Positions 3,001-45,708 of a DNA stretch of 64,000 nucleotides are shown piece after piece. The notes under the pieces were generated by a model. The model did no database searches, was not told where the DNA came from, and saw only the letters and a program-made list of their open reading frames with translations. Source of the DNA: an uncultured Clostridia bacterium. GTDB taxonomy: Bacteria > Bacillota > Clostridia > Christensenellales > Borkfalkiaceae. Both the position numbers and the translations under genes were made by a program. The stretch is from contig CANREJ010000004.1 of NCBI GenBank assembly GCA_947629665.1, positions 1-64,000 on the forward strand, in the 5' to 3' direction. How positions within the stretch are numbered: position 1 is the stretch's first letter; each line of letters opens with the position of its first letter.

Positions 3001-5478
3001 ACGGAAGATGACGGCATTTCAACATACGACCTCAATAAAAACTTCTATATAAGCGGTGAGTTGACCATTGGTATAGGAAGTATAGAAGCGCATAAAGTTG
3101 AGATCGACGGTCTTTCTGTATCTATTGACAAAAACAGCGAAATTGAAGTGAACCTCAAATTGCACTATAAAGGATTGTGGTTACTTACAGATTTGGTAAA
3201 CGGCGCTTCGACGGTAGAAATGACCATAAAGAACGGAATGGTATACTTGAAGAGAGTACAAACTACCAATTCTTTTAATAGTCAACTCAAAACTCCCAAA
3301 ACGATCTACCGTGTAATGCCTCTTGATACGTTTATGGCCGACATAATGAATCAGCTTGTGTTTATTCTCAATTTCGGCGACACAATTGCCAACCTTATGA
3401 CAAAAGACAGCACCGGAAATGAAAATACCGAAAGTACTTTAAGCTACAAGCAGGACTACGGCGAACAACTCGGCGACTATTTGCACTCCTTTATCACCAA
3501 ACAAAACGAAGAAGGTACGGCGTCTTGGACGGCTACGCTAAGCAACGTGGGCATAAACAGGCTTGCGGGCATGACCAGCCTTCTTTCGGACAAAACCACA
3601 GTAACGTTAAACGGAGCAAAGGAAGAGGTTACCGACGAGGCCGGTGCGCTATTGTTTGAAAAATATACAATTAAGTCGCTCGATCTCAATGCTAAACTGT
3701 TCTCGGTGCTTACTGTTGGCGGCAACCTCGTTTGGCACAACCCCTGCAACATATACGACGGGGACAGCGAGGCGGCAAAGAACGCTTTGGAAAGCTCCGC
3801 TCCCTCAATCAAGGCGGAAGAGTGGCTTGGCGTTTCGGGCGCATATACCTTTGAAGATATAAAGGCAAATGTCGAATGGGATAAGCTGGCAACTGCAATC
3901 AACACTACCCAAACAGCCGACACCGTCAACCCCGAGTTCTCCACCGACACAGAGAGCTATCTTGAAGTAATTTTCAACGGCGACGAGAACAATTACGACA
4001 ATATCGACTCGCACGCGCGTTTGGGTAAATACGGTTACTATCTCAACGACGGAAGCGAAGAGAAATTGCTCAAAGAAGAGGTTGTATGGTTCATCAACGA
4101 AAACAGCGAAATTTGCAGCAAAAATATCTCCGATCCCGACCTTGCGGAATACGCAAAAGAGCACTACGGCTTAGTTTGGGGCGAACCCGTAAGGAACGGC
4201 GGCACGTTTAAAAAGGCTGCCTCGTATGTTGCCGAAAAGTACAGCGTAAAAATTCACAGCGAACACTATATGCCGGGCTATGATTCGGGAGATACAGACT
4301 ATATGTATGAGTATGTCCATACATACGGTGATAGGGTCAACATTGATATGTCGTATGAGATCCGCGGCAACGCCGAAGATACGTGGTACCGCATAGCGTA
4401 TGCGGAGTACAACGGCGAAAAGTATTATGGGGAGGATATAGATTCGCTTGTAATTGGAGCCGACGCGGAAATTACAATAGTTTGGGAGGAGATACCTCAC
4501 GCCACGGTAACGGTTGAAAGCGAGCATGAAATAGCGGGCTTTGAAAGCGCAGGCGGTAAGTGGCAAAAGACCTTTGAAATAGAGACGGGCACGTACGTCA
4601 ACCTCAAAGAGCTCGTAGGCTATATAGCCGACACTGCGGAGGGCTACACCTTCGGCGGCTTCACTCTGAACGAGGGCGACGAGGAAACCTCGGATATAGT
4701 GAACATAAGCGGCGACACGACCATCTACGTAAAGTGGATAGAGCCCGAAATTACGGTGAACTATTACAGTTCTTTGAACGTTGCGGGCTACGAGCAAACG
4801 GTAAAAGAGGGCTACACTACGGTTTACACCACTTCCGCAACGTATAACATGAGCTCGGGCTTCGGCGTAATAACTCCCGAATACTCGGGCTATGAGTTCC
4901 TCGGCTGGTTCTATAACGACGGCGGGAATTGGATAAAGGTAACCGACGTTAAGAACGACATCGAGGGCTCGGATAAATATTCCACCGCAGTAGAATTGCA
5001 CGCCCTGTGGTACAGTGTATCGGTAAATTGCACAAGGGCGCAAAGAACGGAAAGAAAGGAGGGAACAGTATTTAAAAAGACTTTCCATACTTTCTATCTT
5101 GACGTCAATCTCGATATTAAATTTGAAGCAGTTGAAAATTTGCTTGATTTGATTACGGTTTCGGACGTGAATTATCGTATGTATTTCACATTCGATGATC
5201 CTGCTCCTAAATATTATGCAACAGATAAGGAGTATCAAGATACGAAAATAGGTTCACATACCGGAATTTTGCCTTGCGACCATTACAGCAAAAACTTTGC
5301 CGCCGACAACGGTTTGGGTTTCTCCTTTGTCTCCGAAGAGTTGCAAAGCAACAGCGGTGCGGACGATTACACTACTTGGAACGTAGTATATTCATATAAT
5401 TTAAAGTTCGGCGACAGTGTTTTATTGACGTCGGGCGAAAGTGAAAGTAATTATTTAAATGGTAGGTTTGCATTTTAA
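1..5478 (+). CDS. Giant repeat-containing surface protein (5' end outside window)
   Basis: Frame 1 is open from base 1, so the TTG at 67 in the ORF track is not the real start and the N-terminus lies upstream. At least 1825 residues are visible. The first part is a tandem repeat of 217 residues (651 bp): the motif YDNIGVRLAK recurs at bases 1 and 652, a diverged third unit starts near 1330, and each unit contains AIAKEAKLPEL and LQGIMDMFKKEE. The middle (about residues 450-1400) is beta-rich and of unknown family. About residues 1400-1690 contain InlB B-repeat-like modules ending in patterns such as YEFLGWF and ELHALW. No LPXTG motif or C-terminal membrane anchor is visible, so the anchor may be an N-terminal lipobox outside the window. 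A surface role (adhesion or polysaccharide contact) is inferred from the repeats only. A strong hairpin follows the stop. Confidence 0.85.
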   Translation, partial: YDNIGVRLAKTEFNNFAEAAQKLYNAIAKEAKLPELTELSLQGIMDMFKKEEQSKDDGQTNEKTVAEKVIEILNKLDITNAGDLTIKYGEITAVLINSNGALSANVTYKDISASVEVKNHEEVPMPGIKYFDGAKLIPLLNNVTNIITEKGLTISGSVIIPITTGESKTEIGINITALSIKWNEQHEFTFGLSATLTLDKTPHTIYAEYNGENISLVYDNIGVRLAKSEFTNFAAAAQKLYNAIAKEAKLPELKELSLQGIMDMFKKEEPKGDGQGNEKTVAEKVIEILNKLEITNAGDLTIKYDNITAVLVNNNGALSANVTYKDINATVNISTCAEEAGKSVLPADTEVKYFSAADLIPLMTDVTEIITNKGVTVGGTVNVTVGSTAIQVTVYRLSVTWENGIKLLLDARITADGTDHDIYAEYSAESNQLTVVYGSLQDGVGVQLNVKDDAATFEDALVKLYNRIAEVINTIVEDKPMKPAEDLNGVYENITPVINKITDLIKTLENAFESVKDITGKIEGVKTEKLNIFDIINSLEYSKEADKFTVETAGINLSVWKDAAGFNLGVQTNGTVVELNGLTIIATSATESFFDVGVEPIDADGLCELVDYIGAAVEMLAKDTFKIELKGTVTTTDERYKDVENNVKYNVEAVFEYIQGSEYPVHIETGADGGEPNFWISPDMYAHVMVNLKSTIIDVDSVLFDIYILDGNPEIGENGLTSGTLTTDDELDVYMSISRIPYELNDNDGKNHSNPVKIYAPVKEIMTIAAAGVAMADLGGITTEYKQINEIIAKVADTLDVLLVDKYLTYTKDQFSSLGASLLEQLLGGKLSDIINGLLKSLGGENAETAPKTAEPNAEPDTNVPEEQGEYGRNRERKGALAKFEVTPIADENGKNTGATFTVQVKEGATASVTKENYTYKYAYTDADGAEQSEERESTRITNVTVKNSKLNATDTIPELNVTVDYENVSKETELSGYISFVGVDNLLQAVVNSATHATGTEDDGISTYDLNKNFYISGELTIGIGSIEAHKVEIDGLSVSIDKNSEIEVNLKLHYKGLWLLTDLVNGASTVEMTIKNGMVYLKRVQTTNSFNSQLKTPKTIYRVMPLDTFMADIMNQLVFILNFGDTIANLMTKDSTGNENTESTLSYKQDYGEQLGDYLHSFITKQNEEGTASWTATLSNVGINRLAGMTSLLSDKTTVTLNGAKEEVTDEAGALLFEKYTIKSLDLNAKLFSVLTVGGNLVWHNPCNIYDGDSEAAKNALESSAPSIKAEEWLGVSGAYTFEDIKANVEWDKLATAINTTQTADTVNPEFSTDTESYLEVIFNGDENNYDNIDSHARLGKYGYYLNDGSEEKLLKEEVVWFINENSEICSKNISDPDLAEYAKEHYGLVWGEPVRNGGTFKKAASYVAEKYSVKIHSEHYMPGYDSGDTDYMYEYVHTYGDRVNIDMSYEIRGNAEDTWYRIAYAEYNGEKYYGEDIDSLVIGADAEITIVWEEIPHATVTVESEHEIAGFESAGGKWQKTFEIETGTYVNLKELVGYIADTAEGYTFGGFTLNEGDEETSDIVNISGDTTIYVKWIEPEITVNYYSSLNVAGYEQTVKEGYTTVYTTSATYNMSSGFGVITPEYSGYEFLGWFYNDGGNWIKVTDVKNDIEGSDKYSTAVELHALWYSVSVNCTRAQRTERKEGTVFKKTFHTFYLDVNLDIKFEAVENLLDLITVSDVNYRMYFTFDDPAPKYYATDKEYQDTKIGSHTGILPCDHYSKNFAADNGLGFSFVSEELQSNSGADDYTTWNVVYSYNLKFGDSVLLTSGESESNYLNGRFAF

Positions 5479-8770: not shown

Positions 8771-8951
8771 GTTCACGAAAAAACAGACGTTCGGCGATGT
8801 CTGTTTTTTCCGTGATTAGAGGAGCCGGCTCCTCTTTGCGCCATTTTTAAGGGCGCACATTTTATATAATGGCGCAAATTCACCTTGCTGAGGCAAAGGT
8901 TTTTGCAAATTGTGGCTTGCTGCGCAGGGAAACCCTGCTTGCAACGTAAAT
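8771..8951. ncRNA. Multi-hairpin element, copy A (candidate structured RNA or hairpin mobile element)
   Basis: No ORF. In order: hairpin PX (8774-8814, arms GAAAAAACAGAC and GTCTGTTTTTTC), P0 (8819-8834, GAGGAG/CTCCTC), P1 (8835-8844 paired with 8869-8878, TTTGCGCCAT/ATGGCGCAAA, 24-nt loop), P2 (ACCTTGC...GCA-A-AGGT), a conserved linker AAATTGTGGCTTGC, P3 (GCAGGG/CCCTGC, 8924-8938) and the tail TTGCAACGTAAAT. Copy B at 29630-29813 has the same order and nearly the same spacing but different stem bases that still pair. PX alone would work as a bidirectional terminator. The transcribed strand is unknown because pairing is nearly all Watson-Crick. Confidence 0.5.
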
Positions 8952-8967
8952 TATTTTAAATATTTTT

Positions 8968-29467: not shown

Positions 29468-29506
29468 TAGCTACCGAGCGTTGTGTATAAGGCGTCGTTC
29501 TGCTGT

Positions 29507-29629
29507 GTTGCGCTGCGGCAACTTTCAGTTACGTACGTTTTAGTACGCTCCTTCAAGTTATCCTCGCGCGCCTTGCATAACTCGCTTCTACCCACCGCAA
29601 GCTCCCGCCAACGTGTTATAAGCTACGCT
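29507..29629. repeat. Dispersed repeat C, copy 3 (diverged)
   Basis: Contains AGTTACGTACGTTTTAGTAC and GCTCC, then AACTCGCTTCTACCCACCGC and CTCCCGCCAACGTGTTATAA. No ORF. Confidence 0.55.
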
Positions 29630-29813
29630 GTTCACAAAATTCTCGGCAGGCCGTGCCTGCGAATTTTCGTGATTTTGAGGGCTTCTCGCCCTCTGCCTGC
29701 GATTTTCTAAGCGCCCCCAATTATATAATCGCAGGCATTCACCTCGCAGAGGCGCAGGTATGCGCAAATTGTGGCTTGCGGCGCAAAAGCGTGGTTTTGC
29801 TTGCAACGTAAAT
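29630..29813. ncRNA. Multi-hairpin element, copy B
   Basis: Same arrangement as 8771-8951. GTTCAC opens it, PX is at 29633-29671, P0 is GAGGGC/GCCCTC (29677-29693), P1 TGCCTGCGAT/ATCGCAGGCA (29694-29703 with 29728-29737, 24-nt loop), P2 ACCTCGC...GCG-C-AGGT, the linker AAATTGTGGCTTGC is conserved, P3 GCAAAA/TTTTGC (29783-29800), and the tail is TTGCAACGTAAAT. Most base differences from copy A fall in paired positions and are matched by a change in the partner. Confidence 0.5.
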
Positions 29814-29825
29814 ATTTGGGAATAT

Positions 29826-29945
29826 GCGCACTCCTCGGTTACGTACGTCTATGTACGCGCCCTTCGTTGCTTACGCACGCTCATTGTCTTGCTTGTTTCT
29901 AACCCGTTGCTAACTACGTAATAACAACTCCCGCAATTTTTAAAT
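29826..29945. repeat. Dispersed repeat C, copy 4
   Basis: GCACTCCTCGGTTACGTACG, then TCTATGTACGCGCC, GCTTACGCACGCTC, TTTCTAACCCGTTGCTAACT and ACTCCCGCAATTTT. Collinear with copy 2 at 24973-25110. Confidence 0.7.
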
Positions 29946-30722: not shown

Positions 30723-33700
30723 ATGAAACGACTCAGTAACAAATTGCTCATAGCCGTATTGGTTATGGTAGCCGCACTGTGTCTGTTTACGTTCGCGGCT
30801 TGCGCGAAGGAAGAACAGGCTTCAACCACGGTAACCGTATCCTATGACGGCGGCGAGTTGAACGGAGAAACGTCCGCAACGTTCCAAATGGACGCCGGCG
30901 GCGATCTTGGAACCGCCCTTGCGGAGTATGAGGGCGTAGCTAAAAACGGCTATACTTTTGCTGGCTGGAATATGCCCGAAAAAGTTGACGGCAAATATGC
31001 CGCCGAAATAACGGTAACCGCCAAGTGGACGGCAGTAAGCTACACCATCACCTATAACTACGACGGCGGCGCTCTGCCCGAAGGCCAGACCAACCCCGCA
31101 ACCTACACCATAGAGCAGGACGTAACCTTTGTTGCGCCCCAAAAGGTCGGCTATGATTTTGCGGGCTATGTGGACGGCTCCGACAATCCCGTAACGGGCA
31201 TAACCAAGGGCACCACGGGCAATATGACCGTAAAGGCGACCTGGACAAAGGGCAAAACTACCGTTACCGTTGATTTTGGCGGCGGCAAGATAGACGAAGC
31301 AACCGAAGCGTCGTTTACAATCGACTGCGACGGCGACCTTGAAGCCGCTCTTGCAGACTATGCAGGCGTAGCTAAAACCGGCTATACCTTTGCAAGCTGG
31401 ACGTTGCCCGAAAAAACGGACGGCTTCTATGCAAAAGAGGTAACCGTAACGGCAAATTGGACGGCTGTAAACTACTCCATTACCTATGACTACGGTGAAG
31501 GCGGCGCCCTGCCCGAAGGCAAAACCAACCCTTCGTCCTACACTATTGAGCAGGACGTAACCTTTGTTGCGCCCCAAAAGACGGGCTATACTTTTAAAGG
31601 TTTTAAGGACGCCAATGGCAACACCGTAACGGATATAACCAAGGGCACCACGGGCGATTTAGCTTTAACCGCCACGTGGGACGTAATTAAAGCCACCGTC
31701 AATTTCTATCTTCCGGGCGGGGAGGAGCCCCTTAAAACTTCCGTATTCGAATATAACACGGACATTGCCTTGCCCCAGGAGGTAAAAGACCAAATCACGG
31801 GTCAGGATCTTGTGCTTTCCGGTCTTTTAAACGAGGACGGCACTCCCTTCACCGTTGAAAAGGCGACAGAAGAAGTTACATACAACGTCATTCTCGACGT
31901 CTACAACAAAACCATGACTTTTGCCGAGGGCAATGCGGACGATTATGAAACGGAGGCCGAAATCACCTATAATGCGGACGGTTTCTATACCGCAACCGTA
32001 ACGGGCAATAATCTCACTGCGCTCTATTATCCTAATTATTATAATGGCAAGCCCGTTGAAGTAATTTTGGATTCCACCCAAGTGAACAACAGCATATATT
32101 TTGCCGCGTTGACGTCGGCATATATCCCCGCCAATGTAAAACTTATATGGAACGAAGGAACCAACGCAAACTACTTCGGTTTGTTCCACAGCGCGGAGAA
32201 ACTTGACAAGGTAACCTTTGGCGCGGGCAGTAAATTGCAGGAAATACACGACGTAGCAATGTTTAAAAACACCGCCATGCTCAAAACGGTGGCACTTCCC
32301 GATTCAATCGAAGTTATATTCGCGGGCAGCCAAAACGGTATCTTCTCGGCAGATTCCGGCAAAACCGTGGGGCTTACGTCCTTTTCCGTTCCCAAAGCGT
32401 TAAAGAAATTGCCCCAAAACACGTTCAGCGGCGCAACAGCGCTTGAAAGTTTTATAATTCCCGAAGGTTCGCAACTCACCGAAATGAGTTCCTTCGGCGG
32501 CGAATATGAAAAAGTAACCGAACTTGACTTCTCCAATGCGACCAAGCTCGTAAAATTGCCTACCCTTTCGGGCTTCTATAACGTTGCAACCTTTAAGTTC
32601 CCCGCTTCCTTGCAGGAAATAGGTACTTTTGCAGGTTCGCAAAACAAGAACGACAAGGTAACTTCCATCGACCTTTCGGGCACTCAGGTGGAGGAGCTTG
32701 GGGCAAACACTTTTGCAAATCTTCCCAACCTTGCGGAAGTTAAGTTCCCCGCAACGCTCACAACCATAGGCCTGCGTCTTTTCGGCGCAAGCGGCACAGG
32801 CAACGACAACACCAAAATAACCGAACTCGACTTTTCGGGCACACAGCTTGCCGCCGTTCCCGAATTGGCGTTTGCGTATATGTCCGGCCTCACAACGGTA
32901 AAATTCCCCGCGACGTTAAAGCAATTCGGCACACTTGAACGTACAAACGACACCACGTTGAAAGGTGCAAACAACACGGCGGTATTCTATGAAAGCACAA
33001 ACGTTACCACAGTAGTGTTTGGCGGCGCGCTCGACGTATTGGGCGACTTCGCCTTGTATAACCTCGGCAAACTCGGCGACATCACCGTTGAGATTGCCGC
33101 AAACGGCCAGATGGGCTCGCACGTGTTTGCAAATGCGGGCGCGGCTTCGGCTACAATAACCGTCAAGCTCGGCGCGGGCGCAACGGCCGCCGACTCGGCG
33201 TTCATGTTCACCAAGGCTCTCAACCTCAATTTGCAGGGCTTTGCAAGTTTCGGCAACAGCGGCATAACCGCCCCCGAATCGCTGGATAGCATAGCGGCGT
33301 TAAGCGTTACAACCAACGCTGTCGCAACTATCGCAAACTATCCCGCACTCTACGGTTCGCTTGTTGCAAATGTAACGTTTGACGAAGCCTTGACCGAGCT
33401 CAAAGGTTACGCCTTTGCGCTCAGCCGCGCAACCCCCGTGTTTGCAAAAACCGAGGGCGTAACCTACGGCGGTTACCTGTTCTATAAATCATCAATTGAA
33501 AAATTTGACTTTACAAACACGCCTTTCAAAAACGTAACCGAAAAAATGTTCTACGGCAGTGCGGAATTGGACGAACTCGCAGGCTGGGATACTCTTGAAA
33601 CCGTTGAAACCGGCGCGTTTGTGGGCACAAGCGTTACCAAGTTTGAAATAGGCAAAAATCTTACGTACGTCAACCCAGAAGCGTTCACTTCGGGCACGGT

Positions 33701-36700
33701 AACTTACGACGTCGGCTCCACGAACAGCTATTATGAAAAGGCTACAAACGATGAAGGCGACACCGAATATATCCTCTACAAAAAGGATAACAAAGTATCC
33801 ATATTCTATGATGTAAAGATGGCGGGCGACGAGGACTTTGAACGCGACTTTACCGCCACGGAAATCAAGCTCACCGAACTCGGCAACGCCTATGCGGGCA
33901 ACACGCACCTCACGGGCATCAAACTTCCCGACACAATCACCGTTATTTCGGCAAACGCGTTCAAGGACTGCACGGCTCTTACATATGCCGAGTTCGAAGG
34001 CGAACTCACCGAAATCGGCGAAAGCGCATTTGAGGGTTGCACCGCATTTGCAGTGTTTGAAATCCCCGCAAGCGTTATAAAGATAGGCGCAAACGCCTTT
34101 AAGGGCACGGGTCTTTCAATCCTCACCGCAAAGGAAGGCAGTCAGCTCGCGCAAATCGGCGACAACGCGTTCGACGGCACCAAACTCACCTCCGTAAATC
34201 TCTCTGCGGCAACCGAAATAGAGAGCTTCGGCGCGGGCGCGTTTGCAAACCTTGATCCCAAATTGGAAGAAGGCCAAACCTTCACGTTTACCTTCCCCCA
34301 GTCCCAAAAACTTACAACCCTTCCCAATAATCTGTTTGAAAACGACCTCTGTCTCACCGAGATTGAGATACCCGCTTACATAACCACATTTGCAACGGGC
34401 GTATTCAAGGGTTGCACCAACCTCACAAAACTTTCGTTTGCAGAGGGTAGCGTAATAAGCGAATTCGGCCAGGGTTCATTTACAGGCCTCAACATTACCG
34501 ACCTTACGCTTCCCGACGGCGTTAAGACCATCGGCAAAGCGGCGTTTGCCCAAATGACGGAACTTGAAAAGATAACCATACCCGCAGGCGCAACAATCGA
34601 GGCGGGCACAAGCGGTACAGATAAAAAGAATATGGGCGCGTTTACGGGTTGCACGGCCTTGACTGATGTAACGTTCAAGGGTACAGGCGTAACCGTTCCC
34701 GACTACACATTCTACAATTGCTCTAAACTTGCAAATGTCAACTTTGAAAATGTTAAAATAATAGGCCTTGCCGCATTCTACAACACGGGCTTTACTTCAA
34801 TCACTCTCGGCGCAAATATACTTTCCGATGATGAAACTCCCGCAGTAGGCAAAGCGGCGTTTGCGACCAGCACAAACCTTGATACGGTGAATATCGCAAC
34901 CACCGTAACGCTCGCCGCAGGCACGGGCACAAGCACGACAAGCCATGGCGTATTCGGCGGTTGTACGGGTCTTAAAACCGTAACCATAACGGGCGAAGAC
35001 ACAGTAGAAATTCTCGACTACACATTCTACGGTTGCACCGCGCTTGCTACGGTCGATTTTGCAAAAGTTACCTCGGTAGGCACGGCCGCGTTTACAAGCA
35101 GCGCCCTCAACGGTTCTTTGGATTTGTCCACAATAACATCTTTCGGTAAGGCCGCATTTGCATCTTCAACACAGATAACCGAAATAAAACTTTCACCCGC
35201 GGCTACATGCGTGGACGGTTCGAGTACAAGCGGCGCAAACCTTGGTGTATTCGGCGGTTGCAACGGCCTTACTACCGTAACATTTGCCGAGAGCGCGGAA
35301 AACAAGATGTTCTCGGTTCCCGCCTACGGTTTCTACGGTTGCACGGCTTTGAGTAGCTTTGATTTCTCAAAAGTAAGCGCGGTAGGCAAGAGCGCTTTCC
35401 AAATGGGCAGTTTTGCTTCCACAACCAAGCTGAATTCAAATGCGGACGACTTTAAAAACATTACTACCATAGGCGACAACGCTTTCTACTATTTCAACGT
35501 TGACGCAGTAAATCTTTCGGGTGCAACAAATATAGGCGCTACGGCGTTCTACGGTGCGGAAAATCTTAAATCTGTATCTTTCGCCGAAGATGCAGAAGAA
35601 CTTGTAATCGGTAAAGCCGCCTTTGCCGGTAGCGGTCTCACGTCCGTTACAATTCCAAATGGAGCAACTCTCACCGCAGGTACAAGTGGCACGGGCACAA
35701 GCGTTGGCGCATTTGGCAATTGCACGGGTCTTGGAACAGTAACGTTTGCAAATAAAGTAACCTCTTATGAAGTTCCCAACTACACGTTCTATGGCTGTAC
35801 CAACCTTAAAACGGTTGAATTTACAAAGATAAGCTCAATAGGCAACTATGCTTTCAGCAACTGCGGCTTCCAAAACGTTGAGTTGGGTGCAAATACAACC
35901 CTCGGCACATACGCGTTTGACGGTTGCGCCGCCCTTACAACGGTTACTCTTGCAGATGGTGCAACAATAGCAAGCATACCAAACTACGCTTTCAGAAACT
36001 GCACTTCACTTACGAGTTTCCCGTTCGATAAAATCGCCGCGCCCGCTTCGGCAACAACATTTAATATCGGTTCCAACGCGTTTGAAAGTTGTACGTCGCT
36101 CACAAGCGTAACATTTGCAAACGACGTGAATATCAACGGTAGCGCATTTAAAGGTTGCACCGCGCTTAAAACGGTTGACTTTGCCCATGTTAAGGCAATA
36201 AGTACCAGCACATTTGAAAATTGCGCTTCGCTTACCGAAGCAACCGCAATATGCAACACCACAAGCACAAACGCCACAACAAAAGCGCAGGTTCCCGGCT
36301 CGGCGTTCAAGGGTTGCTCTTCGCTTATCACGGTAACTATTCCCGCAGACGTCAAAACAATAGGCACTAACGCTTTCCAAAATTGCTACAAATTGGTAGT
36401 GGTAATTAATAACAGTGCAAACCTTACTTTGACTGCTGGCGGCACAGGCAACGGCGATTTAACTAAATATGCCAAACTTGTTATAAACAGCGAGGGTGAA
36501 AACACCGTTCTCTTTAAAACCACCGACGAAAAGTTTATGGTTATAAAAGAAACGGCGGAAGAAGTTGCAACCTATTCGGTAATAGCGTACACCGGTACGG
36601 ATCCAGCGGTGGTTCTGCCCGAAAAGCTCACGCTTGACCTTGGAGATGAAAAAACAGAAGAAGTAACAAGCTATAAACTCTACGATTATCTGTTCTATAA

Positions 36701-38213
36701 CAGCACGGCAATCACAAGCATAACAATTCCTGCTTCCGTAAAGGAAATAGGCGCAAGTGCGTTCCAAAACGCAACCAAACTTAAAACGGTAACAATTACC
36801 GACGAAGAGGAAAATGCAAGCAAACTCACTACCATAGGCGCGTCGGCGTTCGCGGGTTCGGGCATAGAAAGCATAATTATTCCCGCATCTGTAACGGCGG
36901 CGGGCGGCAACTTCCCCGCAGGTTCAAGCGCAACAACAGGCGTGTTCAGCGGTTGCACGTCTCTTGAAACGGTAACGTTCAAGGGCACGGGCGTAACTGT
37001 TCCGGCATACGCGTTCAACGGTTGCACCGCACTTACAACGGTAAACTTTGCAAATATATCTTCAATCGGCAAGGGGGCGTTCGCCAAAACGGGTCTTACG
37101 GCCGTTGAACTTGTCGCAGGCACAACCATAGAGGAAGGTAGCGGTACAAGCGACGGAGCCTTTGCCCAGAGCGTGGCCTTAACAAAAGTTACATTTAATT
37201 CCACGGACGTAAAGGTTCCGGCATACGCTTTCTACGGTTGCACCGAACTTGCCACGGTAAACTTTGCAAACGTATCTTCAATCGGCAAAGCGGCGTTCTA
37301 TAACACCGGCTTTACAACTCTCAGCCTTTCGGCAGATACCGAGCTTTATACCGCAACAAGTACCAGTGACGGCGTATTCTCGGCTTGCGCAAAACTTACC
37401 GAGTTTGGGTTTATTGGCAACAAGACCTGGACAACAATACCCAAGTATTTCTTCTATAATTGCAAAGTGCTTACAAAATTCAACGCTTCCCAAACCGAAA
37501 ACGTTGTGCTTCCCGCAGGCCTTACCGAAATCGGCGACAATGCTTTCTACGCTACGGCAATAGCGAGTGTTAGAATCCCCGCTTCTGTAACGTCAATCGG
37601 AGCTAATGCGTTCTATAACTGCGCTTCGCTGGCAACGGTTGAGTTTGAAGCTCCCGCCGAGGGTGTAGAGGCGGCAAACCTTGCAATAGGCAACAGTGCG
37701 TTCAGCAGCACGGCAATAACGGGAATCACCCTTCCCGCCCGCGTAAACTCCATAGGCACAAACTTGTTCCAGAATTGCGCTTCTCTTCAAACGGCGGATC
37801 TCACCACGGCAAACATAACCGCTCTTACACAAAACACGTTCCGCGGTTGCGCTGCGCTTACCACCGTAAAACTTCCCAAGGTCCTTGCGGAAAACGGTTT
37901 GGACGCCGCATTCCTGTTCAACGGTTGCGTTGAGCTCACAGATATTTGGTATGAGGGCGACGCGGTTCTCACTTCTCCCACCAAGCAAAAGAGCGGTAAC
38001 AACTACCAGCAAATATTTGCCGGAGGCGAAAACGACGTAACGTTCCACGTAAAAGACGCCACCAAGTACGATGAAACATGGGGCACCAATCCTCAACAGT
38101 TTGTAACTTCCAGGGGTGCGGCAAACGGCCATAAAGCCGTATTCGTTACGATTGAACCTGAGGTTACGGACACGGAGACGGACGCCGGTACGGATTCGGG
38201 CGAGCAAGCATAA
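30723..38213 (+). CDS. Giant BspA-like leucine-rich-repeat lipoprotein with InlB B-repeats
   Basis: 2496 residues. The N-terminus MKRLSNKLLIAVL...FTFAAC is a lipoprotein signal with Cys26 (or close) as the lipid site. About residues 35-330 are four InlB B-repeat-like modules arranged as two duplicated pairs (GYTFAGW, TVTAKW, YTIEQDVTFVAPQK repeated). From about 400 to 2460 it is LRR_5/BspA repeats (FKGCTALKTV, AFYGCTALA, IPASVKEIGASAF), several dozen of them. The last 20 residues are acidic (TDTETDAGTDSGEQA). An outward-facing binding protein is expected; BspA relatives bind host proteins such as fibronectin or fibrinogen, but the ligand here is unknown. AGGAGG lies 7 nt before the ATG. Blocks of about 73 residues are duplicated in the second half. 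Confidence 0.93.
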   Translation: MKRLSNKLLIAVLVMVAALCLFTFAACAKEEQASTTVTVSYDGGELNGETSATFQMDAGGDLGTALAEYEGVAKNGYTFAGWNMPEKVDGKYAAEITVTAKWTAVSYTITYNYDGGALPEGQTNPATYTIEQDVTFVAPQKVGYDFAGYVDGSDNPVTGITKGTTGNMTVKATWTKGKTTVTVDFGGGKIDEATEASFTIDCDGDLEAALADYAGVAKTGYTFASWTLPEKTDGFYAKEVTVTANWTAVNYSITYDYGEGGALPEGKTNPSSYTIEQDVTFVAPQKTGYTFKGFKDANGNTVTDITKGTTGDLALTATWDVIKATVNFYLPGGEEPLKTSVFEYNTDIALPQEVKDQITGQDLVLSGLLNEDGTPFTVEKATEEVTYNVILDVYNKTMTFAEGNADDYETEAEITYNADGFYTATVTGNNLTALYYPNYYNGKPVEVILDSTQVNNSIYFAALTSAYIPANVKLIWNEGTNANYFGLFHSAEKLDKVTFGAGSKLQEIHDVAMFKNTAMLKTVALPDSIEVIFAGSQNGIFSADSGKTVGLTSFSVPKALKKLPQNTFSGATALESFIIPEGSQLTEMSSFGGEYEKVTELDFSNATKLVKLPTLSGFYNVATFKFPASLQEIGTFAGSQNKNDKVTSIDLSGTQVEELGANTFANLPNLAEVKFPATLTTIGLRLFGASGTGNDNTKITELDFSGTQLAAVPELAFAYMSGLTTVKFPATLKQFGTLERTNDTTLKGANNTAVFYESTNVTTVVFGGALDVLGDFALYNLGKLGDITVEIAANGQMGSHVFANAGAASATITVKLGAGATAADSAFMFTKALNLNLQGFASFGNSGITAPESLDSIAALSVTTNAVATIANYPALYGSLVANVTFDEALTELKGYAFALSRATPVFAKTEGVTYGGYLFYKSSIEKFDFTNTPFKNVTEKMFYGSAELDELAGWDTLETVETGAFVGTSVTKFEIGKNLTYVNPEAFTSGTVTYDVGSTNSYYEKATNDEGDTEYILYKKDNKVSIFYDVKMAGDEDFERDFTATEIKLTELGNAYAGNTHLTGIKLPDTITVISANAFKDCTALTYAEFEGELTEIGESAFEGCTAFAVFEIPASVIKIGANAFKGTGLSILTAKEGSQLAQIGDNAFDGTKLTSVNLSAATEIESFGAGAFANLDPKLEEGQTFTFTFPQSQKLTTLPNNLFENDLCLTEIEIPAYITTFATGVFKGCTNLTKLSFAEGSVISEFGQGSFTGLNITDLTLPDGVKTIGKAAFAQMTELEKITIPAGATIEAGTSGTDKKNMGAFTGCTALTDVTFKGTGVTVPDYTFYNCSKLANVNFENVKIIGLAAFYNTGFTSITLGANILSDDETPAVGKAAFATSTNLDTVNIATTVTLAAGTGTSTTSHGVFGGCTGLKTVTITGEDTVEILDYTFYGCTALATVDFAKVTSVGTAAFTSSALNGSLDLSTITSFGKAAFASSTQITEIKLSPAATCVDGSSTSGANLGVFGGCNGLTTVTFAESAENKMFSVPAYGFYGCTALSSFDFSKVSAVGKSAFQMGSFASTTKLNSNADDFKNITTIGDNAFYYFNVDAVNLSGATNIGATAFYGAENLKSVSFAEDAEELVIGKAAFAGSGLTSVTIPNGATLTAGTSGTGTSVGAFGNCTGLGTVTFANKVTSYEVPNYTFYGCTNLKTVEFTKISSIGNYAFSNCGFQNVELGANTTLGTYAFDGCAALTTVTLADGATIASIPNYAFRNCTSLTSFPFDKIAAPASATTFNIGSNAFESCTSLTSVTFANDVNINGSAFKGCTALKTVDFAHVKAISTSTFENCASLTEATAICNTTSTNATTKAQVPGSAFKGCSSLITVTIPADVKTIGTNAFQNCYKLVVVINNSANLTLTAGGTGNGDLTKYAKLVINSEGENTVLFKTTDEKFMVIKETAEEVATYSVIAYTGTDPAVVLPEKLTLDLGDEKTEEVTSYKLYDYLFYNSTAITSITIPASVKEIGASAFQNATKLKTVTITDEEENASKLTTIGASAFAGSGIESIIIPASVTAAGGNFPAGSSATTGVFSGCTSLETVTFKGTGVTVPAYAFNGCTALTTVNFANISSIGKGAFAKTGLTAVELVAGTTIEEGSGTSDGAFAQSVALTKVTFNSTDVKVPAYAFYGCTELATVNFANVSSIGKAAFYNTGFTTLSLSADTELYTATSTSDGVFSACAKLTEFGFIGNKTWTTIPKYFFYNCKVLTKFNASQTENVVLPAGLTEIGDNAFYATAIASVRIPASVTSIGANAFYNCASLATVEFEAPAEGVEAANLAIGNSAFSSTAITGITLPARVNSIGTNLFQNCASLQTADLTTANITALTQNTFRGCAALTTVKLPKVLAENGLDAAFLFNGCVELTDIWYEGDAVLTSPTKQKSGNNYQQIFAGGENDVTFHVKDATKYDETWGTNPQQFVTSRGAANGHKAVFVTIEPEVTDTETDAGTDSGEQA

Positions 38214-38247
38214 TATCATAGGCACAGTTTTATATAAAACCCTGCAT

Positions 38248-38273
38248 TTCCCTCCCGATTTTTCGGGAGGGAA
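38248..38273 (+). terminator. Intra-operon hairpin (possible attenuator)
   Basis: TTCCCTCCCGA-TTTT-TCGGGAGGGAA in the 139-bp gap before the protease gene, followed by CAGGTAGTTTTT. The T-run is displaced by 7 nt, so it may partly terminate or just stabilise the upstream mRNA. Confidence 0.55.
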
Positions 38274-38352
38274 CAGGTAGTTTTTAACGGATTTATCAAT
38301 TTTATTGCAATATTCAACAAAAGTCCTGATTTTGCAGGACAGGAGGGTCATT

Positions 38353-41300
38353 TTGAAAAAGTTAGCTTTAAGCATACTCTCGCTCGTGCTTGTGGGCACG
38401 CTCGCCGTCCAGCCTGTTTTTGCGCAGACTGCGGCAAGCCCCGTGGGCGCGGCGGAAAATGCAAACGAAGCCTCGCAAACCCAAACCGCGGAGGAGTCTC
38501 TCCGCGAATACAGCTACGGCGGCGGTGAAGTTATAAACGTAACCGACTCCCTCGGCGAGGCCATTGCCCAAAAAGTAAACGGCAGCATTGCACAAAACGA
38601 GTATGCGCAATATGCTCATTCTACCGATTCCCGCAAGATAATCGTGGAATTGAGCGGAAACAGCCTTGCAAGCGGCTACCGCGCTCTGGGCAGCGCAACG
38701 GCATACGGCAGTATGGCGGATTATGCCGCCTCCGCCGCGGGCAAAAAACTCGCCGCAGAGTGCAGGGCGGAACAGCAGGACTTTATGTCAACGCTCGGCA
38801 AAATGGGCGTGGAGTATTCGTGTGAATATAATTACAACGGCATTGTAAACGGCGTTGCGCTCACGGTAAAGGAGAGCGACCTTGCCGCCATTTCGCAGGT
38901 GGAGGGCGTTAAAAACATAATCTTTTCGGAGCAATACGCAGTTCCCACGGCCGAGGCAGTGTTCAACCCCGTTAAGGCATATTCCACGGGCATTTACGAC
39001 ACAACGGGCATAAGCTACACGGGTTCGGGCGTAGTTGTCGCCATTTTGGATACGGGTCTGGACTACACCCACAACGCGTTTTCCACCATGCCCCGCGTGC
39101 AAACCCTTAAAAAGTCCGACATAAAGGCGGCGGTGGACAGCGGCAACCTTGCCGCGCAGGCAAGATTGGAGGGAGTAACGGAGGATAATCTCTACTACAA
39201 CGCAAAAGTGCCCTTCCAGTTCGACTACGCCGACAACGACGCCGACGTATTCCCCATAGCCTCCTCGCACGGCACCCACGTTGCGGGCATAATTACGGGC
39301 TACGAGGAGACGGTCAACTACGAGCCGCTTCCCTCCGACACGAACATGTATTTCAACACCAACGAAAACGGCGACCCCACCTTTAAGGGAGTTGCGGTGG
39401 ACGCGCAACTTGCAATCTTTAAGGTATTTTCCGACGATTTGGATGAGCCCGGCGGCGATACGGTCAATATAATTGCCGCCCTCAACGACGCGGTTTTGCT
39501 CGACGTTGACGTTATAAATATGTCCCTTGGGCTTTCATGCGGATTTTCGAGGCTTTCGGACGACGATTCCGTAAACAAAATTTACGACTCGATACGCGAC
39601 ATGGGCATTTCGCTCATAGTGGCCGCGGGCAACAACTTCTCTTCGGCGTACAACGGCACTTACGGCAACACCAACCTTGCCACCAATCCCGATAGCGGCA
39701 CGGTAAGCTCGCCCTCGATTTACAACGGTGCAATTTCCGTAGCCTCTGTAAGCGGCCAGCTTTCGCCCTATTTCCTTGCCAACAACTCGGTTGCGGTATA
39801 TTACAGCAACGCCCGCAACAGCGCAGGGCAGGAGCTGGACTTCCTCAACACACTTTTAAACGGTTCGGCAACCAAAACGTTCAATTACGTGGTAATAGGC
39901 GGCTACGGTGAAAACCACAACTACACCTCCGCCGTAAAGGCAAAGTTCGCGGGCGGCAACACCATAGCGGTTGTATCGCGCGGGAACACAAGTTTTGAAG
40001 ATAAACAAAAGGTAGCGGCCGCCAACGGCGCGGTCGGCTGTATCATATATAACAACGTATCGGGCATGATAAACGCCTCGCTCGGCACGGGCTATGAAAT
40101 CCCCACCTGCACCATAACGATGGATATCGCAAAGCAGTTCATCTCGCAGGAGGAGGGCACCATAACCTTAAACCGGGACTTTAAGGCGGGGCCTTTCATG
40201 AGCGATTTCTCTTCGTGGGGCGCCACTTCCGACCTGCACCTGTACCCCGACATAACCGCCCACGGCGGCTACATAACCTCGTCGGTACTCGGCGGCTACG
40301 GCGTGTACAGCGGCACATCCATGGCAACCCCCAATGTGGCGGGTATTTCAACCTTGATAAGGCAGTATCTTGCCGAAAAATATCCCGATATGACCAAGCG
40401 CGAGCGCAACGACCTCATGTATCAGCTCATGATGTCCACTGCGACCATCGCCAAAAACGAGGAGGGCAATCCCTACTCCCCCAGAAAACAGGGCGCGGGG
40501 CTTGCCGATATAAACAACACTATCAACACGGAAGCCTATCTCTATGTTGAAGGCGACAACAAAACCAAGTTGGAGCTGGGCGACGACCCCGGAAGGGAGG
40601 GCGTATACACCCTGCGTTTCCGTATAAATAACACGTCGTCGGCGGCAAAAACCTACCGTCTGGATAAATACGTAATGACCGAAACCATGTCCTCCGACGG
40701 AATAACCGTAGCCGAAAAGGCGTACATGTTGGATGACGCGGCAGTCAAGCTCGTAAAGGCTGAAAGCGGCGCAACGTATTCAAACAACGTGCTCACCGTT
40801 GCGGCGAAAACGGACGCGGAGCTTGTGTTTACGCTTACGCTCACGGCGGCGGACAAGGAATATCTCGATACAAACTTCGCCAACGGCATGTTTGTGGAGG
40901 GCTATCTGCGCTTTATAGAGGAAAATTCGGCGACGGAAAACATTGAACTGAGCATACCTTTCATGGCGTTCTACGGCGACTGGCTCGCCGCGCCCATGTT
41001 CGATAAATCGTGCTACGACGTTTCCCAATCCTACTTCGATTCCTCCGTACCCGACGAGGACAAACTTCAAGCGGACGTATACGAATCCGTAGTAATAGGA
41101 AAATACTACCGCTCGCTGGAAAGCCTCATGGGCTTGGGCGAATACATAATGATCCACGAGGACCAGGACACCCCCATAGTTGAAAGTTCCGTGGATAAAA
41201 TAGCCGTCGGCGGCTCCGACTACGGCATATACGAACTGTACGCCGTGTATGCGGGCATGCTGCGTTCGGCAAAATCCATGCGCATAACGGTAACCGACGC

Positions 41301-44300
41301 CGTAACGGGCAATGTGGTTATGGAGAAGATGGAGTATGAGGTGGGCAAGTCGAGCAGCGGCGGTCCCGCGTTTATCGAGATAGAACTCGACCCCCTTGAA
41401 CTCGGCTTAAAGAACAACACCAAATACAACGTAACGCTCACGGGCACGCTGGACTATGAAAACGGCGACAGGGCAAACGTAAACACGTGGGAATTCTCCT
41501 TCTACGTAGACTACGAAATGCCCAGCGTCAGCAACTACACCGTGAGGACGGTATACGACAGGGACAACAACGAAACCGTTTACCTCGACCTCGAATTGAG
41601 CGACAACCACTACATAGAGTGTTTACAGCTGTTCTCGGCAAGCACGTCCAACGGCTCCGATCTCACAATGCTCAACCAATATCCCATACCCATAGAGGGC
41701 GGCAGGAACAGCATAACCAAAGTAACGGTAGACATAACAAATTATGTTGAAGCGTTTAAAGAGAACAAAATCAACGGCGTATCCAACCAGATAGGCGTCT
41801 ACATGCAGGACTATGCGCTCAACACGGGCGCCTACATAGTTCCTCTCCGCTGGGACGAAGTGGAGAGCATATCCATGAAGCACAACGGCGAAGAGCTTTC
41901 CGAAATAAAGAACGTTGAAATTGCCGTGGGCGAGGCATACGCGTATGAACTCACAACCCTTCCCACAAAGGTTGACCCCGCCGCGCTCAACATAACGTTC
42001 AGCAATCCCGGCATAGCCGAAATCCGCGACGGCGTAATCTACGGCAAGCGCGCGGGCAACAGCCACGTTACAATAACGCCTCTGCGCCCCACGCTTGAAA
42101 ATTACACCTACGAGTTCGACCTTGCGGTAACCGACGGCACGGCGGAAAAAGTTGCGGCAAAGAACGTATATTTCAGCACATATAAAAACGGCAAAATGAC
42201 CGTAAAAATTTCCAACAACCAAATAAATCTGGACTGCGGTGAAACCACTCAGCTGGGCTTGACCTACGACCCGTGGTACGCCGCACCCGAAAATCTCAAA
42301 TGGGCAACTCTCACGCCCAACACCGTATCTGTAACATCGGGCGGTGAAATCACAACTCTCAACGAGGGAGTGGGGCGCGTGCGCGTGAGCTGGACTTATG
42401 ACGGCGTTGAATATTCATCGGCGCTCACGATTCGCATAGGCGAAAAGTACGAAATAGTCAGCGGGTATTTATACCGCTATCACGGCGCGGACGAAGTTCT
42501 GCAAATCCCCGCCAACCTCGGCATAACCACCATAGGGCACTATCTCGAAAAGACCTCCGGACCCTTCTACCAGAACACAAAAATAAAGACGGCAATAGTG
42601 CCCACGGGCGTAACAACAATAGGTTTGGCGACCTTCTACGGTTGCACTAACCTTCAAACGCTGTTCCTGCCTTCCACGCTCGAAACTATCGGCGAGGGCG
42701 CGTTCTACGGCTGTACCAAACTTAAAAACGTATATTGGTACACCGAGGCGTATTGGGACGACGACTTCAACGCCTACACGTTTGTAAACGAAAACGGCGA
42801 GCGCGTGCGTTGCTTTGCCGACACGGGCGAAGTGGTAGGCGGCTTTGAGTACACCTCAAACTGCACGGCAAAAAACATAAACGTCCGCACGCAGGCATTC
42901 TATTTGTGCCGCGCAATGGAAAACTTCGATCTCTCGCACACCACGGCGGTCTACGCGCAGGCATTCTCGTTTTGCAGTTCGCTTAAATCGCTGGACGTAT
43001 CCAACGTATCCTATGCCGAATCCTACGCTTTCAGCAGTTGTTCAAGCGTAACGGAAATAAAGATGTCCCAAAAGACGGCGGTAGGCGACGGCATGTTCTT
43101 TGGCGACACATCGCTCACAAGCGTGGATATCTACGCTCCAAAGTTGGGCAACCAGGCGTTCTCCGATTGTTCGGGATTGCAGGAAGTGAACATTTGCGCA
43201 AACATTTCCGTAATAGGCGCGCGCGCATTCTATAACTGCAACAGGCTGGTTAACTTCAACCTTCGCAACAACGCGCGCATAACCCAGCTCAACGCAACGG
43301 TATTCGGCAACTGCACGGCGCTCACATCGCTCTCGCTCAACGGCGTATCGTTTTTGGGCAGCGAAGTGTTCAACAACTGCAACAAGCTCGAAGAAGTAGA
43401 CTTCGGCTCGCGCTCCACGCTGGACACGGTTTCGTCCTATCCGTTTGTGGGATGCAGCCGCCTTGTGCGCCTGACCGTGGCAGAAAATAACCGCTATCTC
43501 ACCACCAAAACGGTAACGGTGGGCGACGTTGAATACAGCCTTATCTATCGCGGCAATTCGCTAATTCTCGCGCCCACGGCATACAAAATTTCCTCGTTCG
43601 ATTTCAGCGACGGCGAGGGCGGTGTAGTGGAGGAAATAGGCGCCAGCGCCTATGCGTACTCCGGCATAAATACGGATACTCTCGTAATTCCGGAGGGCGT
43701 AAAGAAGATAGGCGACTATGCGTTTTACAGTTGTTCCTTCAAGACGCTCGTGCTTCCTTCCACGCTGGAATATTTGGGCGACCAGGTATTTGCCTACAAC
43801 ACAAGTTTAAGGCGCGTTGTATTCCTCGGCGGCGACTTTAAAGTAGTAAGCTATTGCTCCTTCCTGCGTTGCAGTGCGCTCGAAGAGGTAGTTTTACCTG
43901 AGGGTATAACGGAAATCGAAATGAGCGCCTTCCGCTATTGCACGTCGTTGCAGGGAATCACCTTCCCCGCTTCCCTCAAAACGGTAGGGCCGTACGCCTT
44001 TGAAAGCTGTATTTCCCTCCAAAACATAGAGTTTGAGCCGGGCAGCGAGCTTGAAACCATCGACAGGTACGCGTTCAGCAACATTCCCATCAAAACTTTC
44101 GAGTTCCCCGCAGGCATAAAGAACATAGGCAACTATGCTTTCTACTATTCTGGACTCACCAAAATAACCGTTCCCGCATCAATTGAAACGTTCGGCAACT
44201 TTGCGTTTGCATATTGCCCCGACCTCAAAGACGTAACGTTGGAGGAAGGGCTCACCTACGTAGGTTACGGCGCGTTCTCATGGGTGAACACGGCGGGCAC

Positions 44301-45708
44301 GGGCTTCTACTACAACACGAGGCTCACGGAAATATCCTTCCCCGACTCCGTTACAATAATAGGACCCTATGCCTTTGCAGCGTGCAGGGGGCTTACTTCG
44401 CTCAACCTCAACAAAGTCAAATATATTTACGACTGCGCATTTATGGGTTGCAACAGATTGGCGTCCGTAACGGGCGAAAATGTAGAATCCATAGGCGTGC
44501 AGGCGTTCTACCAGGATACGGCTCTCACAGAGTTGAGCTTCCCCAAGGCAAAACTTGTAAACGCCAACGCGTTTATGCAGTGTACGGGGCTTACGGAAAT
44601 AGATTTGCCGGAGTGCGAAGCCATTGCAAGCTATGCGTTCTACCAGGACACGGCTCTCACTAAAATAAACGCCCCCAAGACGGAGGTTATATATCCCGCG
44701 GCATTCTACGGCGATTATGAGTTCAAGGAATTCAACTTCCCCCAGGTTAAATTTATAGGCGAGGCGGCATTCTTTGCTTCGGGGCTTACAACCGTAACCC
44801 TTCCCAAAACGCTCGAACGTCTTGACAGGGCGGCCTTTGCCCAGAGCATATATCTGGAAGAATTTATAGTTGAGGACGGCAACACCGTATTCACCACCGA
44901 CGGCAAGGGCGTTTACCGCACACTGCCCAACGGCGGGCTTGAAATAATTTCCTACGCGCAGGGCAACGAGGCAACGGAGTACTACGTAAAGGAGGGCACC
45001 GTGCGCATAGGCGACTGGGCGCTCTCGTACGCAGGCAACATTACCCGCATAGAGCTTCCTTCCACGTTGAAGAGCGTCGGCACGGGCGGCATGTACTACC
45101 TCGGCATGAAAAAGGACCAGGATCCCCCCACCTACGTGTTCCACAGCGTTGAAGCTCCCGAAGTGGAGGGCGAGTACGAGGAAGATTTGCAGAGCTTCAT
45201 CCAGCTCTACAACAATTTCAGCATCAATCTCGGCGGCGGATACATTTTAAAAATAGAGTATCCCAAAAACGGCACGGGCTACAACAACCACGTCTACGGC
45301 AACTACTTTGCCGAGCCCGAAACCTATCTTGCCGAGGGAGCCGAACAGGGCACGCTCGCGCTGGTTGAAAGAATCGACGCGCTCGACCCCGAAAATCCCG
45401 ACGGCAACGAAATAACCATAATCCGCAGGAGCTACAACCTCCTCGGCGCAACCCAGAAGAGTTTTGTAACGAACTACCAAAAATTCTGCGAAATCGAGGC
45501 GGCTTACAACGAACAGCAGGGTGAAAACCCCGGTGAAAGCGAAAATCCCGGCGAGGACGGAGGCGGCGAAGCCGCGGCTCCCGCAAAAGGCGGTTGTTCG
45601 GGCTTTATATCGGGCGGCGACGCGGGAATTATAGGCGGAGCCATGCTGTTGCTCGCCGCGGCGCTCATTGCAGTAAGTAAAAAGAAGGGAGGCAGTGCAA
45701 AGAGATGA
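38353..45708 (+). CDS. Membrane-anchored subtilisin-family (S8) protease fused to LRR_5 repeats
   Basis: The start is the TTG at 38353 after AGGAGGG; 2451 residues. Sec signal LKKLALSILSLVLVGTLAVQ, cut likely after VFA. A propeptide-like region (about 70-200) precedes the catalytic domain: Asp233 (ILDTGLDY), His306 (SSHGTHVAG), oxyanion Asn427 (AAGNNFS) and Ser656 (SGTSMATP), with a PA-type insert between (around NTIAVVSRGNTSFEDK). Fn3-like and Big_2-like domains follow (about 740-1360). LRR_5 repeats fill about 1375-2250. The tail has a linker with KGGCSGF, a hydrophobic helix (GAMLLLAAALIAVS) and KKKGGSAKR, so the protein is held in the membrane facing out. Its last bases (ATGA) overlap the next start. 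Confidence 0.93.
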   Translation: MKKLALSILSLVLVGTLAVQPVFAQTAASPVGAAENANEASQTQTAEESLREYSYGGGEVINVTDSLGEAIAQKVNGSIAQNEYAQYAHSTDSRKIIVELSGNSLASGYRALGSATAYGSMADYAASAAGKKLAAECRAEQQDFMSTLGKMGVEYSCEYNYNGIVNGVALTVKESDLAAISQVEGVKNIIFSEQYAVPTAEAVFNPVKAYSTGIYDTTGISYTGSGVVVAILDTGLDYTHNAFSTMPRVQTLKKSDIKAAVDSGNLAAQARLEGVTEDNLYYNAKVPFQFDYADNDADVFPIASSHGTHVAGIITGYEETVNYEPLPSDTNMYFNTNENGDPTFKGVAVDAQLAIFKVFSDDLDEPGGDTVNIIAALNDAVLLDVDVINMSLGLSCGFSRLSDDDSVNKIYDSIRDMGISLIVAAGNNFSSAYNGTYGNTNLATNPDSGTVSSPSIYNGAISVASVSGQLSPYFLANNSVAVYYSNARNSAGQELDFLNTLLNGSATKTFNYVVIGGYGENHNYTSAVKAKFAGGNTIAVVSRGNTSFEDKQKVAAANGAVGCIIYNNVSGMINASLGTGYEIPTCTITMDIAKQFISQEEGTITLNRDFKAGPFMSDFSSWGATSDLHLYPDITAHGGYITSSVLGGYGVYSGTSMATPNVAGISTLIRQYLAEKYPDMTKRERNDLMYQLMMSTATIAKNEEGNPYSPRKQGAGLADINNTINTEAYLYVEGDNKTKLELGDDPGREGVYTLRFRINNTSSAAKTYRLDKYVMTETMSSDGITVAEKAYMLDDAAVKLVKAESGATYSNNVLTVAAKTDAELVFTLTLTAADKEYLDTNFANGMFVEGYLRFIEENSATENIELSIPFMAFYGDWLAAPMFDKSCYDVSQSYFDSSVPDEDKLQADVYESVVIGKYYRSLESLMGLGEYIMIHEDQDTPIVESSVDKIAVGGSDYGIYELYAVYAGMLRSAKSMRITVTDAVTGNVVMEKMEYEVGKSSSGGPAFIEIELDPLELGLKNNTKYNVTLTGTLDYENGDRANVNTWEFSFYVDYEMPSVSNYTVRTVYDRDNNETVYLDLELSDNHYIECLQLFSASTSNGSDLTMLNQYPIPIEGGRNSITKVTVDITNYVEAFKENKINGVSNQIGVYMQDYALNTGAYIVPLRWDEVESISMKHNGEELSEIKNVEIAVGEAYAYELTTLPTKVDPAALNITFSNPGIAEIRDGVIYGKRAGNSHVTITPLRPTLENYTYEFDLAVTDGTAEKVAAKNVYFSTYKNGKMTVKISNNQINLDCGETTQLGLTYDPWYAAPENLKWATLTPNTVSVTSGGEITTLNEGVGRVRVSWTYDGVEYSSALTIRIGEKYEIVSGYLYRYHGADEVLQIPANLGITTIGHYLEKTSGPFYQNTKIKTAIVPTGVTTIGLATFYGCTNLQTLFLPSTLETIGEGAFYGCTKLKNVYWYTEAYWDDDFNAYTFVNENGERVRCFADTGEVVGGFEYTSNCTAKNINVRTQAFYLCRAMENFDLSHTTAVYAQAFSFCSSLKSLDVSNVSYAESYAFSSCSSVTEIKMSQKTAVGDGMFFGDTSLTSVDIYAPKLGNQAFSDCSGLQEVNICANISVIGARAFYNCNRLVNFNLRNNARITQLNATVFGNCTALTSLSLNGVSFLGSEVFNNCNKLEEVDFGSRSTLDTVSSYPFVGCSRLVRLTVAENNRYLTTKTVTVGDVEYSLIYRGNSLILAPTAYKISSFDFSDGEGGVVEEIGASAYAYSGINTDTLVIPEGVKKIGDYAFYSCSFKTLVLPSTLEYLGDQVFAYNTSLRRVVFLGGDFKVVSYCSFLRCSALEEVVLPEGITEIEMSAFRYCTSLQGITFPASLKTVGPYAFESCISLQNIEFEPGSELETIDRYAFSNIPIKTFEFPAGIKNIGNYAFYYSGLTKITVPASIETFGNFAFAYCPDLKDVTLEEGLTYVGYGAFSWVNTAGTGFYYNTRLTEISFPDSVTIIGPYAFAACRGLTSLNLNKVKYIYDCAFMGCNRLASVTGENVESIGVQAFYQDTALTELSFPKAKLVNANAFMQCTGLTEIDLPECEAIASYAFYQDTALTKINAPKTEVIYPAAFYGDYEFKEFNFPQVKFIGEAAFFASGLTTVTLPKTLERLDRAAFAQSIYLEEFIVEDGNTVFTTDGKGVYRTLPNGGLEIISYAQGNEATEYYVKEGTVRIGDWALSYAGNITRIELPSTLKSVGTGGMYYLGMKKDQDPPTYVFHSVEAPEVEGEYEEDLQSFIQLYNNFSINLGGGYILKIEYPKNGTGYNNHVYGNYFAEPETYLAEGAEQGTLALVERIDALDPENPDGNEITIIRRSYNLLGATQKSFVTNYQKFCEIEAAYNEQQGENPGESENPGEDGGGEAAAPAKGGCSGFISGGDAGIIGGAMLLLAAALIAVSKKKGGSAKR

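Follow-up and report, generated by a model that had tools for sequence, protein, structure and literature searches.

Five hairpins between DUF362 and the V-type ATPase operon

The window, i.e., the whole stretch analysed here, comprises 64,000 nucleotides from an uncultured Clostridia bacterium. In it, a DUF362 gene and a V-type ATPase operon are read divergently, and the spacer between them carries, just past a promoter-like site for DUF362, a structured element (copy A). A previous sequence-only reading had placed this element at 8771-8951 and a second copy (copy B) at 29630-29813; both are present at these places, with revised ends. The true left end of copy A is the TCAC at the base of hairpin PX (8773), and its right end lies about 7 nt further than first placed, at about 8957. 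Copy A is one of about 50 copies, in the 1.86-Mb genome, of a dispersed repeat of about 190 bp in which five hairpins follow each other in the order PX-P0-P1-P2-P3.

On the forward strand, copy A starts with PX (8773-8815), whose arms TCACG-AAAAAACAGAC and GTCTGTTTTTT-C-CGTGA close at the left end of the element, with background conservation upstream. It is followed by P0 (8819-8834; GAGGAG-CCGG-CTCCTC) and by P1 (8835-8878), the loop of which contains the conserved AAGGGCGCAC and TATATAAT. The conserved linker TTCACCTTGCTGAG (8879-8892), existing in two variants linked to the P0 type, leads to P2 (8893-8906; GCAAA-GGTT-TTTGC). Then come the conserved unpaired AAATTGTGGC (8907-8916), in which AAATTG is nearly invariant; P3 (8917-8944), made of an outer stem TTGC/GCAA and an inner GCAGGG-AAA-CCCTGC; and the right-end tail CGTAAATTATTTT (8945-8957), in which ATTATTT is 89-100% conserved, with background beyond. 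The full copy B, on the same strand, covers 29632-29819 (PX 29632-29672, P0 29677-29693, P1 29694-29737, P2 29752-29765, and P3 to about 29805).

The comparison of both copies largely agrees with what had been claimed. The P1 arms are TTTGCGCCAT/ATGGCGCAAA in copy A (8835-8844/8869-8878) and TGCCTGCGAT/ATCGCAGGCA in copy B (29694-29703/29728-29737), i.e., five of the ten pairs are changed on both sides, and P0 and P3 do differ by two and three pairs. On the contrary, the single T-A to C-G change proposed for P2 had been read in a wrong helix: the family supports the P2 given above against GCGCA-GGTA-TGCGC in copy B, with two compensated changes.

Throughout the family, the order is PX, P0, P1 (loop of about 25 nt with GGGCGCAC and TATATAAT), the linker TTCACCTCGCTGAG, P2, AAATTG, P3, and the tail, for a length of 187 +/- 3 nt. 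Conservation starts at TCAC and stops after ATTATTT(TAAAA), with background just outside. Conservation is strong in the linkers, loops, and tail, as had been noticed for the unpaired stretches of the first two copies. The P2 loop follows the consensus RGKN (GGTA in 62 of 119 copies), and the PX base exists in two types, TCACG/CGTGA and TAACG/CGTTA, which are matched even at the terminal bases. Some copies form head-to-tail arrays of unlike subtypes with a period of about 196 nt (L116, L154, and L040).

Other copies contain nested inserts, located in the loops of PX, P0, and P3 and in the P1-P2 linker. The P0 loop of L011, L012, L021, L023, L025, L030, and others holds a hairpin-rich insert of about 120 nt (CTTCTCACACGGCGTAAGGACAACGCCGTG...), while other inserts, with GCGAGCGAAGCGACGC-like palindromes, are found in the loops of PX and P3; these are repeats nested in hairpin loops. 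In L019, L002 (2631), L141, and L128, P3 gives way to an alternative 3' part (GGGACGAGCGAGGCATTTCATAGCACAGCACAGTGTGCTGTGC...) that resembles the P0-loop insert in reverse direction. Around copy B, two further dispersed repeat families adjoin the element (29468-29599 and 29825-29928); each is found at about 15-25 places in the genome, often beside the five-hairpin element and beside each other. Downstream of copy B (30723-45708) are two open frames of great length, 2496 and 2467 aa.

Distribution, insertion sites, and candidate movers

A DNA search of this genome gave 48 similar places, and the covariance-model search that had been suggested for this genome and its relatives gave 53 matches here; the element is present in 80 of the 93 congeners. 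Counts per genome, which are lower bounds, go from 0 to more than 35, several congeners having at least 35 copies and several none. In the family Borkfalkiaceae, matches occur in 119 of the 301 genomes, and 5 of the 18 genera are represented (the own genus and four sister genera); the rest of the order, outside this family, presents almost none. A genome-wide pattern scan returned, among the matches listed, Candidatus Coproplasma and Clostridia gut assemblies. In the papers searched, we found no account of repeats from this genus, and the family appears to be undescribed.

Several sites are filled in one genome and empty in another. Three relatives have the gene neighbours of copy A without the element; conversely, next to gltD, a copy is present in a relative (G017) and lacking in this genome. 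The spacer of G017 that is orthologous to the DUF362/V-ATPase one (L240, G017:C10, about 3050-3350) contains an unrelated direct repeat (GATTAAACGTTACGTTTATTGATTGGAGCTAACGC...) in about three copies. Two further comparisons (L124 vs. L065 and L107 vs. L165) reveal a clean insertion of the element alone into the short spacer that separates a ribosome-binding site from a TTAA/TTTAA stretch. Since the flanks of the relatives used are 70-85% identical, loss is possible at each single site and the junctions are placed only to within a few bases. The orientation toward flanking genes is nearly random (39 same, 32 opposite, 33 convergent, and 12 divergent).

Like MITEs, the copies are non-coding, numerous, intergenic, and located at sites that are empty in relatives. 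However, terminal inverted repeats are absent, the left end TCACAAA.. and the right end ..AATTATTT not being complementary, and no target duplication was found by common words, the longest word common to both flanks being 3.94 observed vs. 3.98 shuffled; a duplication of 2-4 A/T bases perhaps occurs. As these are the two features that define MITEs (PMC2229807), we report the family among the small interspersed repeats of bacteria, as a new variant and not as a MITE. The alternative of a mobile hairpin DNA element, already proposed from the two copies, agrees well with about 50 dispersed copies, empty orthologous sites, near-random orientation, and sharp ends. Hence, we consider it probable that this is a non-autonomous, intergenic, mobile DNA repeat family, with five hairpins, a fixed AT-rich tail on the right, and conservation of loops and linkers. 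Its lifestyle is like that of BOX (PMC3049150) and of ERIC, YPAL, and CIR (PMC2229807).

The family also persists. The closest distinct copies are only about 92% identical, so that no recent burst took place, and almost every copy is intact, a state equally compatible with a maintained function. Some sit at orthologous sites and share the left junction across species, and even in different genera (L042 and L184) related elements occupy the same site. Two such orthologous sites present compensated changes, with three PX pairs fully compensated in L038 vs. L128 and a change from C-G to T-A in L132 vs. L140. At three others (L059/L141, L002/L034, and L146/L157), the site and left junction are common and whole hairpins differ, which may result from short-tract recombination or from renewed insertion at the same place. 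Linkage is seen among the types of P0, P1, and linker; it is weak for P3 and absent for P2. Moreover, among the 12 imperfect P1 stems, 5 combine arms belonging to two known types, as expected of recombinants.

Such retention and intactness would be expected as well if the element was kept for the host, as a REP/BIME-like chromosomal architecture element or bidirectional terminator with occasional spread; the excess of convergent over divergent sites (33 to 12) and the symmetry of PX, with its A- and T-tracts, go in the same direction. Nevertheless, we judge this explanation very improbable, as congeners carry anything from no copy, in several of them, to 35 or more, and as the sites differ between relatives.

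We also looked for an enzyme able to mobilize the repeat. The Y1 transposase domain (PF01797) is absent from this genome and from G014, G002, G016, G030, and G006, which are among the congeners richest in the element, and present in 28 of 93 congeners; reverse transcriptase (RVT_1, PF00078) is absent here and in most element-rich congeners; and the IscB-type RRXRR domain, for which we found none here, passes the cut-off in 1 of 93 genomes. All three were rejected as movers, being absent here and in many element-rich relatives. For the same reasons, we discarded an IS200/IS605-type or REP/RAYT element (no Y1 (HUH) transposase in this genome), a retroelement, either group II intron or reverse-transcribed repeat (no reverse transcriptase in this genome), and a HEARO/IscB omega-RNA element, which also gave no Rfam covariance-model match. 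Near the copies, no repeated protein family was found, just host genes and ORFs inside repeats. The one copy on a viral contig (L178:1459-1640; IMGVR_UViG_3300027374_000002) lies just upstream of a gene for a 696-aa P-loop, membrane-anchored protein, Zot-like by inspection, and of a REP_ORF2-G2P rolling-circle Rep gene, with GmrSD and HsdM genes nearby; this setting looks like an integrated filamentous phage. The Zot/Rep pair was rejected as mover, since it was not found near other copies.

Matching of the arms: RNA, DNA, or arm-copying

We confirmed that the pairing is far beyond chance. In 119 aligned copies, which come from model or pattern matches and are thus biased towards intact ones, 97.6% of the stem cells are paired, vs. 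75.2% in shuffles, a control that ignores the relatedness of copies. When the partner is slid by 1-3 columns, which preserves relatedness, 33-54% of the cells pair. All of the 25 modelled pairs show changes on both sides, and covariation reaches 0.541 vs. 0.157 in shuffles. By hairpin, 95.2% of the modelled P0 pairs are paired, 98.6% of the cells in P1, 99.4% in P2, and, in P3, 97.8% for the inner and 91.3% for the modelled outer stem, P0 and P3 both presenting both-side changes. In 105 of 117 copies, P1 pairs perfectly, 28 types of arm being represented. When folded as a single strand of DNA, copy A is much more stable than its shuffles, by z = -5.7 on the forward strand and -6.4 on the reverse one, and so is copy B, by z = -4.2. 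Corrected mutual information revealed no tertiary pairs, the top signals being nested pairs and a non-complementary linkage between P0 and the linker.

Paired changes in non-coding elements are usually taken to prove a functional RNA. Here they are extreme, yet the G-U test points to DNA. Selection on one RNA strand tolerates G-U pairs and not A-C mismatches, and the RNase P RNA of the same genus fits that expectation (G-U 8.2% and A-C 0.6%; 6.0% and 0.8% at covarying pairs, using a MAFFT/RNAalifold structure). In the stem cells of the element, G-U pairs (1.0%) are as rare as A-C mismatches (1.1%), and PX, which is outside the model, presents 10 G-U and 15 A-C among 1544 cells. The constraint is therefore strand-symmetric, and the matching of the arms appears to be imposed on the DNA and not on an RNA. 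RNAs made from both strands would also give this symmetry, but nothing else supports them.

The structured RNA that had first been put forward is thus disfavored. A fold selected in an RNA or in a cis-acting RNA element (leader, terminator, or sRNA) would account for the covariation, for the conserved loops, and for PX, a GC stem flanked by A- and T-tracts and often located 10-30 nt past a stop codon; a TATAAT-like box within the P1 loop could also be read this way, although we rejected a promoter role for it, no matching -35 being found. We nonetheless hold it to be quite unlikely: besides the lack of G-U tolerance, copies lie in both orientations relative to genes and at sites empty in relatives, Rfam gives no match at the gathering threshold and nothing of note at E <= 5, and terminator and promoter scans reveal nothing inside copy A.

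The main rival for the compensation is of another nature. At replication, template switching homogenises the arms of inverted repeats (PMC8604942). The paired changes had been taken to argue for selection on structure; the pairing and the changes are real, but on their own they do not make this inference secure, because arms can also be matched in this way. The repeat would then be old and slowly moving or inactive, its palindromes being kept matched without selection on folding. Such arm-copying is strand-symmetric, as is the observed equality of G-U and A-C; it changes pairs without intermediates, in line with P1 (UA/GC/CG), where only 2 G-U are found in 1178 cells; and it fits the absence of very recent copies. 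On the other hand, arm-copying also inverts spacers, while 86 PX loops are forward and 1 is inverted; it leaves aside the strong conservation of linkers, loops, and tail and the P0, P1, and linker types that travel together, which imply a constraint at the sequence level; and insertions are seen relative to empty orthologous sites. The conserved unpaired segments and the loops that are practically never inverted argue that something beyond template switching acts. As a full explanation, we regard arm-copying as unlikely.

In the mobile DNA repeat that we favor, the element would be recognised as folded DNA, either as a single strand or as a cruciform, and this recognition would oblige the stems to pair and the loops and linkers to hold their sequence and direction. 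Its spread may be ensured by an enzyme acting on the folded form, possibly at the replication fork, while in single-stranded form. Hairpins would be swapped between copies through short recombination tracts, and mismatched arms would be rematched by template switching, by selection, or by both. Both processes may well act together, with template switching as the source of matching arms, and with order and direction being kept by the recognition of loops and linkers. A bolder proposal, which we find possible and rather doubtful, is a novel type of mobile DNA that would be recognised solely through its chain of folded single-stranded hairpins, with a free stem sequence and with arms kept complementary at the DNA level; its hairpins would be exchangeable cassettes, replaced in place at conserved sites, and moved by a host enzyme. 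With its many copies, its filled and empty orthologous sites, and its dozens of species, the family makes it possible to tell selection on DNA folding apart from the copying of arms by template switching.

Comparison with known hairpin repeats

REP and REPIN sequences are thought to move by a single-stranded-DNA mechanism. Like the present family, those associated with Y1 (RAYT) transposases are short extragenic palindromes with many dispersed copies (PMC3116915, PMC3733652); however, they measure 20-40 bp and carry GTAG or CGTC tags, and the Y1 domain is missing from this genome and from several of the relatives that are richest in the element. The integron attC sites (PMC2727003) would be comparable only by a works-like analogy, as DNA hairpins poor in conserved sequence, conserved in structure, and with conserved unpaired features; an attC is a single hairpin adjoining a gene cassette, whereas our copies are scattered over contigs.

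The CIR repeats of Caulobacter and Brucella (PMC2229807) are also made of separate stem-loop arms and a linker, without terminal inverted repeats, but they have two arms with a GANTC loop, against five hairpins and no such motif noted here. ERIC/IRU and YPAL/RU-2 of enterobacteria (PMC2229807, PMC2267715) are palindromic intergenic repeats as well (127-168 bp), with no known mover and, for YPAL, without TA ends. They differ in folding as one long stem-loop instead of several separate hairpins, and YPAL makes target duplications of 3-26 bp, whereas none is detectable here.

How small bacterial hairpin repeats move is still open for BOX, ERIC, and YPAL, and the family described here offers a starting point. 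BOX of Streptococcus pneumoniae (PMC3049150) is likewise modular, structured, intergenic, high-copy, without its own enzyme, and slow-moving, about half of its insertions being old and shared. Nevertheless, BOX has an A-B-C organization with terminal inverted repeats resembling an IS, while our repeat consists of five hairpins without such ends, and from copy to copy its stems are entirely different, the changes affecting both arms.
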